DNA of 34,585 nt, taken from positions 1 through 34,585 of the forward strand of contig JABIUV010000058.1 of NCBI GenBank assembly GCA_018700895.1, written 5' to 3'. Both the position numbers and the translations under genes were made by a program. Source of the stretch: Bacteroidota bacterium (lineage in GTDB: Bacteria > Bacteroidota > Bacteroidia > NS11-12g > UBA9320). Of the stretch, positions 1 through 6,843 are shown one piece after another; position 1 is the first letter of the stretch; the number at the start of each line of letters is the position of its first letter. The notes under the pieces were generated by a model. It saw only the letters and a program-made list of their open reading frames with translations, had not been told where the DNA came from and ran no database searches.

Positions 1-1374
1 CTAGGGATTAGTGGCAGTACACAAGAGGAATATTCTGCCACTGTGAAATATGTAACTGGCAAGAAAAAATGGTACTACGGAATAAGCGGTATCGCTACAC
101 AGTCTGAAAATGTGGTGGATCTTGACCACTATAATATGCCAGATGTACAGCCTAATACCGATTTTAAAAGAGCGAGCATACTACAAACCGTAGGGTACAA
201 ATGGGCCAGAAGTCAATGGACCAATACGTTATATCTGCAAGGGGCTGAGCGTGGTATTCCTCCTCCTTTTTATCAGATAAATAAAAGTAGACAGCAGGAT
301 GCTAATGCTATGATGGTGAATAAGTTTCGTCATAGATCTCGGAATTACTGGGTGTGGGAAATAGCAAATCAGCTATGGGCAGAACAGATTGTTTTTGATA
401 ATTGGAAAAGCGGAGAGACCACCGATAGCCGAGTACTCAATGTGAATAATACTGCATCAGTAAGCAAGTATTTTAAAAGAACGTGGTCTGCCAGACTTGG
501 AGCAGCACTGGATATGGCCAACTATGAGTCAGAAGCGTTAGTAGCAAATGCAACTTGGAATAGACCACGAGTGTTTTTTGATATAGCTAAGCGATTCAAA
601 AAAGTGAAACTAGAGCTGCACCAAAACACCATAGCCTATGAAGGAAAGTTAGCAACGAGCGGTGGGTTAACGGCAAATGGTGGGTTTGCTAAAATATACC
701 AATGGACTGCAAGTGTACAGCGTGTATATCGACTACCTGTGCTCAATGAGCTTTACTGGTATAACCCTGGGAAGGAAATGGGCAACGACTCCTTACTACC
801 AGAACAAGGCTACAAAGCAGAAGCAAAGTTAAGCCGCTACGGAAAAAATATGCAGGTAACGATAAATCCGCATATTGGTACTTTTGAAAACTGGATACAA
901 TGGACAGGAGCTACTGAAATCTCACCCGTAAATATTCACAGTGTAATGGTTTATGGTGCCGTACTTACGGCGAATCACGAGAAGAAATTTAAGGGGATAC
1001 GACTACTTACTCAGGCAAATATAAATTATGTACGTGCCACTTATCAGTATGAAGATGAGAATGATACACGAAATGGAAAGCAGCTCATATTCACCCCGCA
1101 GCTTACGGGTAACCTAACATTTACAGTAGTTCACAGCAATTTGGGTCTATATGCCAATGCACACATGGTGAGTAATAATTATTACTCATCCGATAATATA
1201 AGCTCATTAGATCCTTACCAACTTTATGAACTAGGAGGCTACTACGAATGGCCACAAATCAGAATAGGAGCGGTAGCCAGCAATGTGCTAAATACACCCT
1301 ACTTTACGCAACCACGCACACCGTTGCTGGGCAGAAATTTTAAAATCAACATTAATTATACCATCAAATCATAA
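1..1374 (+). CDS. TonB-dependent outer-membrane receptor, C-terminal part (BtuB-like by context)
   Basis: The reading frame is open from base 1 (reading LGISGSTQEEYSATVKYVTG), so the gene begins left of the window and its N-terminal signal and plug are missing. About 457 codons remain. They alternate polar and hydrophobic residues rich in Tyr/Trp, as expected of beta-barrel strands, and include an RLPVLNELYWYNPG stretch followed by LLPEQGYKAE, which matches the R-P-x-x-x-E-L ... LxPE pattern of TonB receptors late in the barrel. The protein would import a ligand across the outer membrane using TonB energy. The ligand is inferred as a corrinoid because the next three genes, including a BtuG-like propeller, are the families that recur beside BtuB-type receptors in Bacteroidota. 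A cobalamin riboswitch would lie outside the window. The next ATG is 5 bases after the stop. Confidence 0.85.
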   Translation, partial: LGISGSTQEEYSATVKYVTGKKKWYYGISGIATQSENVVDLDHYNMPDVQPNTDFKRASILQTVGYKWARSQWTNTLYLQGAERGIPPPFYQINKSRQQDANAMMVNKFRHRSRNYWVWEIANQLWAEQIVFDNWKSGETTDSRVLNVNNTASVSKYFKRTWSARLGAALDMANYESEALVANATWNRPRVFFDIAKRFKKVKLELHQNTIAYEGKLATSGGLTANGGFAKIYQWTASVQRVYRLPVLNELYWYNPGKEMGNDSLLPEQGYKAEAKLSRYGKNMQVTINPHIGTFENWIQWTGATEISPVNIHSVMVYGAVLTANHEKKFKGIRLLTQANINYVRATYQYEDENDTRNGKQLIFTPQLTGNLTFTVVHSNLGLYANAHMVSNNYYSSDNISSLDPYQLYELGGYYEWPQIRIGAVASNVLNTPYFTQPRTPLLGRNFKININYTIKS

Positions 1375-1379
1375 CCATC

Positions 1380-3053
1380 ATGAAAAGAAATCTACTCCTA
1401 ATTTTCACAGCATTTTTGGTGCAAGCCACCTTCGCTCAGATTACCCACCCACGTGTGTATTCTACCTTTGATAACCTACCGTTGGCTAAAGCGGATACCT
1501 TTAATAATGGAGTAGACGGTAGTGCTGGGTTTACCCATTACGGAAGAACGTGGAACAATGCTTACAATGATGCTTGGGGAAGTTGGAGTGGATGGGCACT
1601 TAGCAATATGACCGATACGGTTACTGCTGGGTTTATCAATCAGTATAGTGCTATCACTGGTAGTGGTGTTAGTGGAACTCCAAATTATATGGTCAGCACC
1701 GGAAATGGAGCATATATCAAGCTAGATGAGGCTACGCCAATAAGTGGAGCATATTTTACAAATGCTACCTATACAGCTCGTGATATGGAGCAAGGAAGTG
1801 GATTTAGTAAAAAGTTTGGTGGAGATGATGGTAATGATGAAGACTATCTGCGAGTTATCATTAGGTCGTACGTGGATGATACTTTTGTGGACAGCACGAT
1901 TTTTTACTTAGCAGACTTTCGTTTTGCGGATAATAGCCAAGATTATATAGTGAAGGATTGGACGTTTGTAGATTTTAATGAGGATGTTACGACAGATATA
2001 GAAGTAGATAGTATTTCGTTCAGATACGAAGGGAGCGATGTTGGTGAGTTTGGCTTGAATACGCCAAAATACTTTTGTATGGATGATTTTAATGCAATAA
2101 GCGAAGGAAAAGTCTTTGGTGATAGATTCACACTGGCAGCAGATACATTTTATAATGGAAATGATAATTCTGGGGGATTCGTCTTAGACCAAATGTTTTT
2201 CCCAAATAGTTTTAATTCGACGTGGAATAGTTGGAGTGGATGGAGTATGAGCACGATGTATGATACTGTGACACCTGCTTACGGAAATCAGTACTCAAGT
2301 ATGATGATGCCCTTAAGTACTTTGCCAAGTTCTAACGATGTAGTACATCAGCAGTGTTTTATTAGTGGGGGAGTGACCAATGAAATACGTGGGCCATATT
2401 TAGACGGTAATGACCCTTCACTATTTGGCTTGTTTGTACCACCTGCACCTATTGCATTGTACCTTACAAACACGACGTATGCTTACAGAGATATGGAGCA
2501 GGGGAGTGGCTTTAGTAAGAAATTTGGAGGAGCAGGCGGTAACGACCCTGATTATTTTAGGTTACTGATACATAGTATTTCTGTGCAAGGAGATATCCTG
2601 GATACCGATACGGTATACCTTGCAGATTTTAGATTTGAAGATAACTCGAAAGACTACATCCTGAAGGAATGGAAAGAAGCAAAAATATCACAGTGCCATA
2701 AGATTGGATTTGAATTGCAGTCATCTGATAATGGAAGTTTTGGGATGAATACGCCAGCTTATTTTAGTCTGAGCCTTATTCAGCTACGCCCGGCATCTAT
2801 TGCGACTCAGAATGCTATAATACGGTTAAAAGCTTTTCCAAATCCTGCTATAAATAAACTAAATCTGCAGGCAGATGAGATGATACTAGAAGTGAAAATA
2901 CAGGGCTTGGATGGTAGAGTATTAATGCATATTGATAATAGGGTGTTATCAAAAAAAGTGGAGGTAAGTACAACATCTCTAACGTCAGGTATTTACTTCG
3001 CTACCGTAACCACCGCAAAAGGCACAGCTACCAAACGATTTATAAAACAATGA
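1380..3053 (+). CDS. T9SS-exported surface protein with two tandem DUF4465 domains
   Basis: 557 residues. A Sec signal peptide (MKRNLLLIFTAFLVQATFAQ) is followed by two copies of one domain, roughly residues 37-240 and 252-470. Each copy has a DTF-N-G-D/N opening, a W-SWSGW motif, an RDMEQGSGFSKKFGG block, a VYLADFRF-like strand, and an NTP-(K/A)YF end. I recognise this as the DUF4465 family. The last 75 residues begin with AFPNPAINKL and form a type A T9SS sorting domain, so the protein should be secreted and anchored at the surface. It sits 5 bases after the TonB receptor and overlaps the next gene by ATGA, so it belongs to the same transcript. It may bind or present the receptor's ligand, probably a corrinoid; that function is inferred from neighbours only. 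Confidence 0.85.
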   Translation: MKRNLLLIFTAFLVQATFAQITHPRVYSTFDNLPLAKADTFNNGVDGSAGFTHYGRTWNNAYNDAWGSWSGWALSNMTDTVTAGFINQYSAITGSGVSGTPNYMVSTGNGAYIKLDEATPISGAYFTNATYTARDMEQGSGFSKKFGGDDGNDEDYLRVIIRSYVDDTFVDSTIFYLADFRFADNSQDYIVKDWTFVDFNEDVTTDIEVDSISFRYEGSDVGEFGLNTPKYFCMDDFNAISEGKVFGDRFTLAADTFYNGNDNSGGFVLDQMFFPNSFNSTWNSWSGWSMSTMYDTVTPAYGNQYSSMMMPLSTLPSSNDVVHQQCFISGGVTNEIRGPYLDGNDPSLFGLFVPPAPIALYLTNTTYAYRDMEQGSGFSKKFGGAGGNDPDYFRLLIHSISVQGDILDTDTVYLADFRFEDNSKDYILKEWKEAKISQCHKIGFELQSSDNGSFGMNTPAYFSLSLIQLRPASIATQNAIIRLKAFPNPAINKLNLQADEMILEVKIQGLDGRVLMHIDNRVLSKKVEVSTTSLTSGIYFATVTTAKGTATKRFIKQ

Positions 3054-3988
3054 GATTAGTTACGCTAATATTTACTGTAATTTCACTTGCTGCTCAAGCT
3101 CAGTTTGATGGGCCGGGAGGCCAATCGGGCAGCATGTCGATAGATAAAGATCACGCAAGTATTACAGCATGGGCGACGTCAGCTGATTTGCAAGTAGGCC
3201 CTTTGCAAAATAGTGACTCATCGCTTGGTTATCCTACCCTAGGCACAGTAGCAAGTGCCTTGGGAGCTTTTGATGGCGACTTAGTAAGCCTAGGCGATGG
3301 AGGTACTATTACTTTAAGCTTTGCACGGCCTATACAAAATGGCGACGGGTATGATTTTGCGGTTTTCGAAAATGGATTTAACGTTGGACTCTCATATTAC
3401 CTAGAGTTAGCCTTCGTAGAGGTAAGTGAAAATGGAACTGACTTTGTGCGTTTTCCGAATGAGAGTGTGATAGATACGGGTTTTCAAACGGATAATTTCG
3501 GATATACCGACCCAACTAAAATATATAATTTGGCGGGAAAGCATCAAGCACCTTATGGTACGTTGTTCGATTTGGAAGAAGTGGGTATGAACGAAGTAAA
3601 CTACGTGCGACTGATAGATGTGGTGGGGAGCGTAAACGATAGCTTCGGCTCCCGAGATAGCAAGGGTAGGATTATAAACGACCCTTGGCCTACACCTTTT
3701 GCCAGTAGCGGTTTTGACCTAGACGCTGTGGCAGTGGTGAATGGCACATTGTTAAAGCGTGAAGAGCACGTATTAACAGGTGTAAATATTTATCCAACCC
3801 GTGCAAATGTATACCAGTACATAACTGTAGAGTCACCTCAAGATGCCAGAGTAGAACTGATGGATATGCAGGGGAAAATCATCTTGGAAACTATCGAAAG
3901 ACAATTTTCGGTAGATCAACTAGGAATTTATTTGGTAAGGGTGATTCAAGCGGATAAGGTGTACACACAGAAGATTGTGGTAGAATGA
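3050..3988 (+). CDS. T9SS-exported cell surface protein found beside BtuB-type receptors
   Basis: 312 residues with a short signal peptide (MRLVTLIFTVISLAAQAQF). The body contains GPGGQSGSMSIDKD near the start, then AWATSADLQVGP, VSLGDGGTITLSFARPI, YDFAVFENGF and ELAFVEVSENGTDFVRFP. I recognise these motifs from a poorly characterised surface protein family often encoded next to cobalamin-type TonB receptors. The C-terminus (from about residue 245, GVNIYPTRANVY to KIVVE) is a T9SS type A sorting domain. The start codon overlaps the stop of the preceding gene (ATGA) and its own stop overlaps the next start the same way, which indicates translational coupling within one operon. Its biochemical role is unknown; a ligand-capture or receptor-accessory role is inference. 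Confidence 0.8.
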   Translation: MRLVTLIFTVISLAAQAQFDGPGGQSGSMSIDKDHASITAWATSADLQVGPLQNSDSSLGYPTLGTVASALGAFDGDLVSLGDGGTITLSFARPIQNGDGYDFAVFENGFNVGLSYYLELAFVEVSENGTDFVRFPNESVIDTGFQTDNFGYTDPTKIYNLAGKHQAPYGTLFDLEEVGMNEVNYVRLIDVVGSVNDSFGSRDSKGRIINDPWPTPFASSGFDLDAVAVVNGTLLKREEHVLTGVNIYPTRANVYQYITVESPQDARVELMDMQGKIILETIERQFSVDQLGIYLVRVIQADKVYTQKIVVE

Positions 3989-4998
3989 AGTGCGTTAGAC
4001 TAGTTACTTTTTTACTCGTATCGAGTTTAATTTTACACGGCTGTAGCGACGAACAACCCACGCCCGAAGTAACCGTAAATGGAGGAGAGGTACTCATTGC
4101 CAATCAAGGTAACTTTGGCTGGGGAGAAGGCACACTCAGTGCTTATAATCCTGCAAGTAAGGAGATACAAAACGATGTTTTTAAGTCTAAGAACAACGAG
4201 GCATTGGGCAATGTGTTTCAGTCTATAACCAAGATTGACAATCGCTACTTTATGGTGATGAATAACTCCGGCAAAGTAGTGGTCACCGATACCAATTTTG
4301 TAAAAACAGGCGAAATCACAGGATTGATCTCACCGCGATACATTTACGAAGTAGCGGAAGGTAAGGCTTATCTTACAGACATTTACGCAGATGTTATTTC
4401 GGTAGTGGACCTGAATACACTAACCGTTACCAGTACTATCACTACCAATGGTTGGTCGGAGCGTGGTGTGGTGGTAGACGGACTGTTTTGGTTTGCTGCA
4501 CCCGAAACAGATAAGGTCTTTCGCATAGACATATCACGTGACAAGATGTATGATAGCATTCAAGTAACATATGCCCCGATAGACTTGGTGATAGACCAAA
4601 ATGAGACGGTATGGGTAGCCTGCCAAGGAGACGAAACCAAAGATGTGAAGCCTATAATCTCACGTATAGATAAAACCTTGACATCTGTGCAGGATGTAGC
4701 TGTACAGATAAACGGAACTCCGTCTAAACTGGTTTTTCACCCGCAGAATAACTCCGTACTTTATCTCGGAGACGGCGTGTGGGAAATAGAAGATTTGGGT
4801 TTTACCCAAAGTCAATTGTTACCACAAAGCGATGAGGTGTTCTTCACCATGGGTGTAGATCCTCGTAATGGGGACGTGTACGTTGCCGATGTGGTAGATT
4901 ACGTTTCTAGAAGCAGAATAACCCGACTGGATGGTCAAGGAGCACTGCTCGACGAGTTTTCGGCGGGTATTATCGCAGGTGATTTCTTTTTTCCGTAG
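3985..4998 (+). CDS. BtuG-like YncE/DUF5074 beta-propeller lipoprotein
   Basis: 337 residues. The signal peptide ends in a lipobox (LILHGC, Cys20), so this is a lipoprotein, probably exported to the outer-membrane surface. The rest reads as a seven-bladed YncE-like propeller. Signature pieces include LIANQGNFGWGEGTLSAYNP, MVMNNSGKVVVTD, GLISPRYIYEV, KAYLTDIYADVISVVD, VDPRNGDVYVADVVDYV and the closing GIIAGDFFFP. These correspond closely to what I recall of the Bacteroides BtuG family, which caps BtuB and binds B12 very tightly. The gene overlaps the preceding one by ATGA and is the last of the four-gene unit. The family call is confident; corrinoid binding itself is inferred from family and context. 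Confidence 0.82.
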   Translation: MKCVRLVTFLLVSSLILHGCSDEQPTPEVTVNGGEVLIANQGNFGWGEGTLSAYNPASKEIQNDVFKSKNNEALGNVFQSITKIDNRYFMVMNNSGKVVVTDTNFVKTGEITGLISPRYIYEVAEGKAYLTDIYADVISVVDLNTLTVTSTITTNGWSERGVVVDGLFWFAAPETDKVFRIDISRDKMYDSIQVTYAPIDLVIDQNETVWVACQGDETKDVKPIISRIDKTLTSVQDVAVQINGTPSKLVFHPQNNSVLYLGDGVWEIEDLGFTQSQLLPQSDEVFFTMGVDPRNGDVYVADVVDYVSRSRITRLDGQGALLDEFSAGIIAGDFFFP

Positions 4999-5028: not shown

Positions 5029-6843
5029 TTGATTAAGTTTAAAGATATATTCAAGCTAGCCAAGCCCTACAGGCCGCAGCTATTTAAGTTTTTAGGGTTT
5101 AACATACTTACGGCTATTTTTAATGTGCTGAGTATTGGGATGGTTATACCCTTCCTCAAAGTACTTTTCAGAAAAAATCCAGAGGTAATTCCAGTTGCTT
5201 TTTCTTATAATCCTACGGACTTTATCGCATTTTTAGATTATTGGATTAGCTACAAGATTCAGGAGTTGGGTCAGTTCAATGCTCTTATTTACTTTTCGCT
5301 GGGTATAATTATTGCTTTTTTTCTCAAGAATATCTCGTTGTACTTCTCATTTTTTAATCTGGCCTACGTGCGAAGTGCCGTAGTGCGAGACATCAGAGAA
5401 CGAGTGTATAATCATATCTTAAAGTTGCCACTTAGCTACTTTAATAAGGAGAAGCGAGGAGATACCATTAGCAGATTTACCAATGATGTAAAAGAGGTGG
5501 AATGGAGCCTGCTGGGTGTGATTGAGCTTTATTTCAAGCATCCAATATCTATTCTTATTCCTTTTATCGCCTTGTTTATTATCAGTTGGCAGCTCACACT
5601 ATTTGTGCTTATAGTATTACCACTGAGTGGGTATCTGATAAGTAGAGTAGGTAAAAGACTGAAAAACGCCGCACAAGCAGGACAGGAGAAAATGGCAGAA
5701 GTTCTTTCTCACTTAGAAGAAAGCCTTCACGGTATTAAGATTATTAAAGCATTCAACGCGGGAAAGGATAAAGAAGAAAAATTTAAATCGCTAAATGATG
5801 ATCACTTTGTTCAAATGGTAAAACTCCACAGAAAGGAGTTTTTAGCATCACCATTGAGTGAGTTTATGGCAAGTATCGTGATGAGTGCGATATTAATCTT
5901 TAGCGGATACCTTATTATCAAAACAGATTCACCGCTAGACCCGGAGTTTTTGATCGGATACATTGCGATGTTTTCTCAGCTCATTCCACCCGCCAAAGCC
6001 ATATCTGAAGCCTTCTTTAGACTCAAAAAAGGAGCTGCATCACTCGATAGAATAAACGACGTACTTAAGGCAGAAGTGGAGATAGACAAAAATGGTGTCC
6101 CCGCACCAGAGTTCAGCGAAGAAATAAAATTGACCAACGTAAACTTCTCGTATGGAGATGGCCCTCTGGTGCTCCAAAACATCAATCTGAGCATCAAAAA
6201 AGGTGAAACTGTAGCCTTGGTAGGAGCTAGTGGAGGAGGTAAGTCTACGCTTGCGGATTTGATACCACGTTTTCATGAATTGAATAGCGGAAGCATTAGC
6301 ATAGATGGTCAAGACATAAGCAATATACAGCTCCACTCACTGCGTAGGATGATGGGCATCGTAACCCAAGATGCCATATTGTTTAACGATACGGCAGCCA
6401 ACAATATTAAGATGGGGGACTTTTACCTAAGTGGAGACCAACTGATGACTGCCGCCAAGGTAGCCAATGCCCACGAGTTTGTAAGAAACTTGCCTAAAAG
6501 CTATAACACCAACCTAGGCGAGAAAGGCATGAACCTCAGTGGTGGCCAACGTCAGCGTATGAGTATAGCACGAGCGGTAGCCAAAGAGCCACCAATTCTT
6601 ATCTTGGACGAGGCAACTAGTGCCTTGGATACCGAAAGCGAAAAAATGGTGCAAGATGCCTTGGAAAAGGTAATGCAAAATCGCACGAGTATCGTGATAG
6701 CCCATAGACTCAGCACTATACAGAATGCCGATAAAATTGTGGTCCTAGACAAAGGTCAAATAGCTGAGCAAGGAAGTCACGCAGAGCTCATTGCAAAAGG
6801 CGGTATTTATAAAAAATTGGTCGATTTGCAGACGTTTGAATAA
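5029..6843 (+). CDS. ABC transporter, fused permease and ATPase (MsbA-like exporter)
   Basis: 604 residues. The N-terminal half (about residues 15-320) has six hydrophobic helices of an ABC exporter membrane domain. The C-terminal half carries Walker A (VGASGGGKST, about residue 398), the signature LSGGQRQRMS (about 502), Walker B ILILDEATSALD (about 522) and the H-loop in IVIAHRLST. Length and fusion order match homodimeric MsbA/lipid-A or drug exporters. The start is TTG; no upstream ATG is in frame, and the N-terminus reads naturally (MIKFKDIFKLAKPYRPQLFK). A -7-like box ends 5 bases upstream, so the transcript may be leaderless. The substrate cannot be told from sequence. It is not a BtuCD-type importer, so it is not an obvious inner-membrane partner for the preceding locus. 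Confidence 0.9.
   Translation: MIKFKDIFKLAKPYRPQLFKFLGFNILTAIFNVLSIGMVIPFLKVLFRKNPEVIPVAFSYNPTDFIAFLDYWISYKIQELGQFNALIYFSLGIIIAFFLKNISLYFSFFNLAYVRSAVVRDIRERVYNHILKLPLSYFNKEKRGDTISRFTNDVKEVEWSLLGVIELYFKHPISILIPFIALFIISWQLTLFVLIVLPLSGYLISRVGKRLKNAAQAGQEKMAEVLSHLEESLHGIKIIKAFNAGKDKEEKFKSLNDDHFVQMVKLHRKEFLASPLSEFMASIVMSAILIFSGYLIIKTDSPLDPEFLIGYIAMFSQLIPPAKAISEAFFRLKKGAASLDRINDVLKAEVEIDKNGVPAPEFSEEIKLTNVNFSYGDGPLVLQNINLSIKKGETVALVGASGGGKSTLADLIPRFHELNSGSISIDGQDISNIQLHSLRRMMGIVTQDAILFNDTAANNIKMGDFYLSGDQLMTAAKVANAHEFVRNLPKSYNTNLGEKGMNLSGGQRQRMSIARAVAKEPPILILDEATSALDTESEKMVQDALEKVMQNRTSIVIAHRLSTIQNADKIVVLDKGQIAEQGSHAELIAKGGIYKKLVDLQTFE

Follow-up and report, generated by a model that had tools for sequence, protein, structure and literature searches.

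Gene content and order

The window, the whole 34,585-nucleotide stretch of DNA analysed here, begins with four genes that all run in the same direction, on the forward strand. The first (1–1374) is the 3' part of a gene for a BtuB-like TonB-dependent receptor, its 5' end cut off by the contig end. After a gap of 5 nt comes a gene (1380–3053) encoding a tandem DUF4465 protein of the BtuJ type, a B12-binding-type protein with a signal peptide and a type A sorting tail of the type IX secretion system (T9SS). The third gene (3050–3988) encodes P3, which has a signal peptide, a predicted BtuH-like domain (the FENGF...INDPWPT...GFDLDAV family) and a T9SS tail, and the fourth (3985–4998) encodes a BtuG-type β-propeller surface lipoprotein. 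An earlier note on this DNA had described the four genes as coupled and had seen ATGA overlaps. Such overlaps are present at the DUF4465/P3 (3050–3053) and P3/BtuG (3985–3988) junctions; at the first there is the 5-nt gap.

Contig C19 starts at base 1 of the window, which is thus a contig break. A search of the whole window against Rfam found no RNA, and hence no cobalamin riboswitch inside it. The sole cobalamin riboswitch in the genome (RF00174, 70.5 bits) lies on contig C13 (743–561, minus strand), and downstream of it lies an open frame that encodes a TonB plug domain and is cut off by the end of the contig. This C13 segment (L002:743–2, minus strand), comprising the riboswitch and the signal peptide and plug of a receptor, would supply the N-terminal piece of the receptor in the window. 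When the intact receptors of four relatives are aligned to both pieces, only 12–13 residues or so (~38 nt) are left between them, so that C13, in reverse, is probably the neighbour of C19, with ~38 nt missing. The operon order put together from the two contigs would be riboswitch–BtuB–DUF4465x2–P3–BtuG, and riboswitch, BtuB, DUF4465, P3 and BtuG occur in the same order in relatives with unbroken contigs. The earlier note had pointed to the sequence left of base 1 as the place to look for a cobalamin riboswitch; the genome's only copy does directly precede the receptor N-terminus, and intact relatives have a riboswitch in the same position. At one related locus (L062:10199–11338) a T9SS-tailed protein of no recognised family lies between BtuB and P3, in the usual place of the DUF4465 protein.

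The receptor and BtuG

The receptor fragment in the window had no match by itself in Pfam, NCBIfam or the PDB sequences. A full-length relative (L033), which is 55–60% identical to both the C13 and the window pieces, matched only BtuB chains among the PDB sequences (E = 2e-19); together with the plug domain on C13, this agrees with the earlier identification of a TonB receptor. The product of the fourth gene matches PF16819 and the known BtuG structures (best, 8p97_B, E = 5e-44), and a lipoprotein signal, LHGC-SDE, can be read from its sequence, as expected for the BtuG-like propeller lipoprotein that the earlier note had proposed. BtuG is thus predicted to have remained a lipoprotein, unlike the T9SS-tailed DUF4465 protein and P3.

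The receptor relative also has a weak match to the TonB-hemlactrns model (45 bits against a cut-off of 324), which could be taken to mean that the locus imports another TonB-dependent ligand, haem or a siderophore, and that its likeness to B12 systems is incidental. However, the cobalamin riboswitch, the BtuB-only PDB matches, BtuG and DUF4465 all agree on B12, and we saw no gene set of another ligand. Import of a different ligand is therefore extremely improbable, and the B12-capture locus claimed in the earlier note is borne out by riboswitch, receptor relative, BtuG and DUF4465 alike.

The DUF4465 protein and predicted T9SS sorting

PF14717 (DUF4465) matches the second protein in two stretches (243 bits), in line with the tandem architecture noted before; the protein can now be described more precisely as BtuJ-type, not BtuH-type. 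The B12 contacts of the BtuJ family have been defined by the structures of BtuJ1 and BtuJ2 (PMC12751083). In our alignment, BtuJ1 contacts W78, Y146, N241, T242 and Y245 are retained in both repeats, as W66, Y131, N227, T228 and Y231 in repeat 1 (1572–2090) and as W282, Y367, N457, T458 and Y461 in repeat 2 (2220–2771). The position of BtuJ1 Y97 is occupied by Phe in repeat 1 and by Tyr in repeat 2. Since the contact residues are retained in each repeat, both B12 sites look functional. B12 binding is reported for eight divergent members of the DUF4465 family (PMC13398666). The protein has in common with that family (IPR027828) the B12-binding jellyroll, the HI-loop NTPxY motif and the DE-helix Tyr (PMC13398666, PMC12751083), but differs in having two repeats within one T9SS-tailed protein. 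C-terminal sorting domains (IPR026444) are recorded in 229 of 824 DUF4465 members (PMC12751083); the available parts of PMC13398666 and PMC12751083 make no mention of a P3 partner or of P3 fusions.

The type A sorting tails of the DUF4465 protein (2835–3050, residues 486–557) and of P3 (3788–3982, residues 247–311) score 41.2 and 35.3 bits, respectively, against TIGR04183, which has a cut-off of 23. Neither protein has a lipobox. SprA, the T9SS component that we searched for, is present in the genome (2456 bits over 2319 positions). Given these tails and the presence of SprA, T9SS sorting of the two accessory proteins, which the earlier note had suggested, is supported, and both seem to be delivered to the cell surface in this way; their export and the way in which the complex is assembled are inferred.

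P3 resembles the B12-binding domain of BtuH2

Upstream of its tail, P3 belongs to no Pfam family (20 relatives searched; one chance match aside). Its core shows some likeness to the LIC_13355 family lipoprotein model of Leptospira (NF033170), but the match is weak, was obtained for 40 of 58 members and, at 25 bits, is far below the model cut-off of 120. An AF2 model of P3 (58 relatives) has a pLDDT of 95 and a pTM of 0.92. The sole Foldseek match to the PDB with E below 1e-3 was 8blw_B, which is BtuG1 with a fused H-domain (E = 1.9e-4). With VIA, the first match was the B12-binding domain of BtuH2 (7biz, residues 318–592; Z 13.2, rmsd 3.0 over 156) and the second the H-domain of BtuG1 (8blw; Z 12.3), followed by the CBM32 of AlyQ (Z 10.1). 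Sequence identity to BtuH2 and the BtuG1 H-domain in the structural alignment is ~16–19%. A sequence profile of P3 also had 8blw_B as its best PDB match; on its own this match is weak (E = 0.084 and 0.026). In the profile alignment P3 N108, an invariant residue of the FENGF motif, pairs with an Asn of BtuG1, which pairs by further alignment with chain position 299 of 7biz. Judging from the length of the construct, position 299 should be Asn399, a contact of the B12 phosphate, and P3 F110 should correspond to Phe401. Among the BtuH2 contacts (Gln333, Asn399, Phe401, His476, Tyr510, Trp511 and Trp577), the mapping covers Asn399 and Phe401.

Because the fold ranking, the 8blw_B profile match and the Asn-x-Phe alignment agree, we consider it likely that P3 is a BtuH-like domain, and it may bind B12. 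The BtuH2 C-terminal domain and the BtuG1 H-domain are its best fold matches and the Asn-x-Phe contact is apparently retained; P3 differs from both in being a single domain with a tail, sorted by the T9SS. The discoidin/CBM32-like fold class to which P3 belongs is a common one, and P3 might instead be a discoidin-like module that binds carbohydrate or a surface and serves to anchor or position the B12-binding proteins at the surface, without binding B12 itself. CBM32 and discoidin domains reach a Z score of 10.1 and the sequence similarity to BtuH is weak, with a profile E value no better than 0.026; in part of the sister-family genomes, moreover, P3 lies outside the B12 operon. Against this, BtuH2 and the BtuG1 H-domain rank clear of CBM32 in the fold comparison, and AlyQ, the next match, is itself listed in the BtuH2 paper as modestly similar in structure to the BtuH2 B12-binding domain (PMC8941943). 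The invariant N108-x-F110 of P3 aligns with Asn399/Phe401, and the sister-family P3 genes outside the operon still have a btuC-type gene 9–16 kb away in 18 of the 19 genomes that have both on one contig. We thus think an anchoring module rather unlikely and keep to the BtuH-like assignment.

P3 and DUF4465 occur together

Among 108 genomes of the order, 73 hold both P3 and DUF4465, 11 hold only one (7 and 4) and 24 hold neither. The Fisher p-value of this co-occurrence (6e-14) is overstated because the genomes are related by ancestry and do not represent independent events. In a genus represented by 17 genomes, P3 and DUF4465 are confined to the same five, and riboswitch and BtuG are found in 15.

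We also inspected 80 P3 loci from Bacteroidota and a few other records. The earlier note had called P3 a second family often found near BtuB-type receptors, and a BtuB-like receptor is indeed nearby in at least 46 of these loci; by fold, the family can probably be specified as BtuH-like. BtuG is nearby in at least 48 loci, DUF4465 in at least 29, a riboswitch core in at least 35, and at least 67 have a T9SS-type tail; all of these are minimum counts, since many of the contigs are short. The regular expression used for the riboswitch core recovered 8 of 12 known sites and gave no match in 1 Mb of shuffled sequence. DUF4465 was counted with a domain-only profile, as other T9SS proteins were matched falsely when the profile also covered the tail. 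DUF4465 and P3 are fused in single proteins at two loci (L143:4315–6096 and L145:5275–6918). Taken together, P3 and DUF4465 seem to belong together, with T9SS tails in Bacteroidota. We found no description of T9SS-sorted BtuH-like proteins or of the P3–DUF4465 pair in the literature that our search, incomplete in its coverage, took in.

Two further arrangements were seen. At L098 (5189–6783), a DUF4465 gene and the P3 gene next to it each have a PEP-CTERM-like signal at the end instead of a T9SS tail, which suggests that surface-sorting signals have been exchanged between lineages. At L049, L050, L055 and L057, a P3 homologue that is not part of the B12 operon adjoins a glutamate formimidoyltransferase-like gene and lies 9–16 kb from a btuC-type gene.

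A proposed surface system for B12 capture

We are confident that the locus is a cobalamin-riboswitch-controlled operon for outer-membrane capture of B12 (cobamide), with T9SS-sorted BtuJ-type and BtuH-like proteins. This reading draws on gene order, riboswitch, protein families and folds, contact residues, sorting tails, SprA and B12-dependent enzymes, all computed here. The operon would be switched on by B12 shortage. BtuB, the TonB-dependent transporter, and the lipoprotein BtuG would form a transporter–lid pair. The tandem BtuJ-type protein and P3 would travel by way of Sec and then the T9SS to the surface or into the medium, where they may bind cobamide and hand it over to BtuBG; we infer B12 binding, surface location and hand-over to BtuG.

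The B12 loci of Bacteroides thetaiotaomicron, as described in PMC10404256, PMC8941943 and PMC12751083, are alike in having the riboswitch, BtuB, the BtuG lid lipoprotein and BtuJ-/BtuH-type accessories. There, however, the accessory proteins BtuH, BtuJ and BtuK are lipoproteins, whereas both accessories here are T9SS-tailed; in addition, BtuJ is a tandem repeat here and the genome has no BtuCDF. The functions of BtuB, BtuG, BtuH and BtuJ, riboswitch control, DUF4465 as a B12 binder and sorting tails on many DUF4465 proteins were already known. New are the proposed assignment of the T9SS-sorted P3 family as BtuH, its pairing with DUF4465, and the missing BtuC-type permease in most genomes of the host family (see below). 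Surface B12 capture would thereby no longer be confined to gut Bacteroides and would include another route of surface sorting, and a widespread T9SS-tailed family that lacks a Pfam model gains a testable function.

The inner-membrane step

The genome encodes several B12-dependent enzymes: MetH, methylmalonyl-CoA mutase, an IcmF-like mutase and a B12-binding radical SAM protein. The earlier note saw no BtuCDF in the window, and this extends to the whole genome, in which we found neither BtuC nor BtuF. The FecCD matches in the genome were rejected as BtuC, being ABC-3 Zn/Mn-type metal permeases, and there is no Peripla_BP_2 protein in the genome. With no BtuC or BtuF detected, the B12 pathway is incomplete as known; BtuCD-F belongs to that full pathway but not to the outer-membrane BtuBG unit. 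Genuine FecCD permeases are found in 2 of 38 genomes of the host family (G003 and G025) versus 64 of the 70 sister-family genomes; a BtuC-type FecCD permease is missing in the other 36 host-family genomes, although 33 have a cobalamin riboswitch. Given the scarcity of FecCD permeases, most of the host family is predicted to have the riboswitch operon without any known inner-membrane B12 importer. In G025 the B12 locus is present, with BtuG cut by a contig end.

A gene for an MsbA-like ABC half-transporter (5029–6843) begins 30 nt after BtuG. Its position behind the operon in several genera makes it a tempting candidate for a B12 transporter: it lies 25–42 nt after BtuG in nearly all the loci that we read from the genus, as well as in a second genus (L041), and a third genus has the order riboswitch–DUF4465x2–ABC. 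As a fifth operon member it would carry out the inner-membrane step performed elsewhere by BtuCD, which would suit a family from which BtuC is missing. There is also a precedent in the exporter-fold protein BacA/Rv1819c, which transports cobalamin (PMC3603451, PMC10960864). Yet the best model for the gene is MsbA (500 bits, below its cut-off of 602), and almost every genome of the order has an orthologue, also where BtuC is present. Genome G011 lacks the B12 riboswitch, BtuG and P3 but has kept the ABC gene near efp, as if the operon alone had been lost, and a conserved promoter-like element, TATCTTCG, directly precedes the ABC gene. The gene belongs to PF00664, and PF06472 (ABC_membrane_2), which we take to be the type of BacA, had no match in the host family. 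A role for the half-transporter in B12 import therefore seems improbable. A hairpin that lies between BtuG and the ABC gene is not conserved in relatives.

The capture operon points to a bacterial family that combines B12-dependent enzymes and an outer-membrane B12 system with no known inner-membrane importer. We tentatively propose, as a conjecture somewhat short of even odds, that in free-living Bacteroidota two T9SS-sorted proteins, one BtuJ-type and one BtuH-like and in some cases fused, form a B12 trap that feeds BtuBG, and that the inner-membrane transporter of the host family is unrelated to BtuCDF. At L156:3088–4374, an ABC-3 metal permease is fused to an iron-dependent-repressor C-terminal domain (Fe_dep_repr_C).
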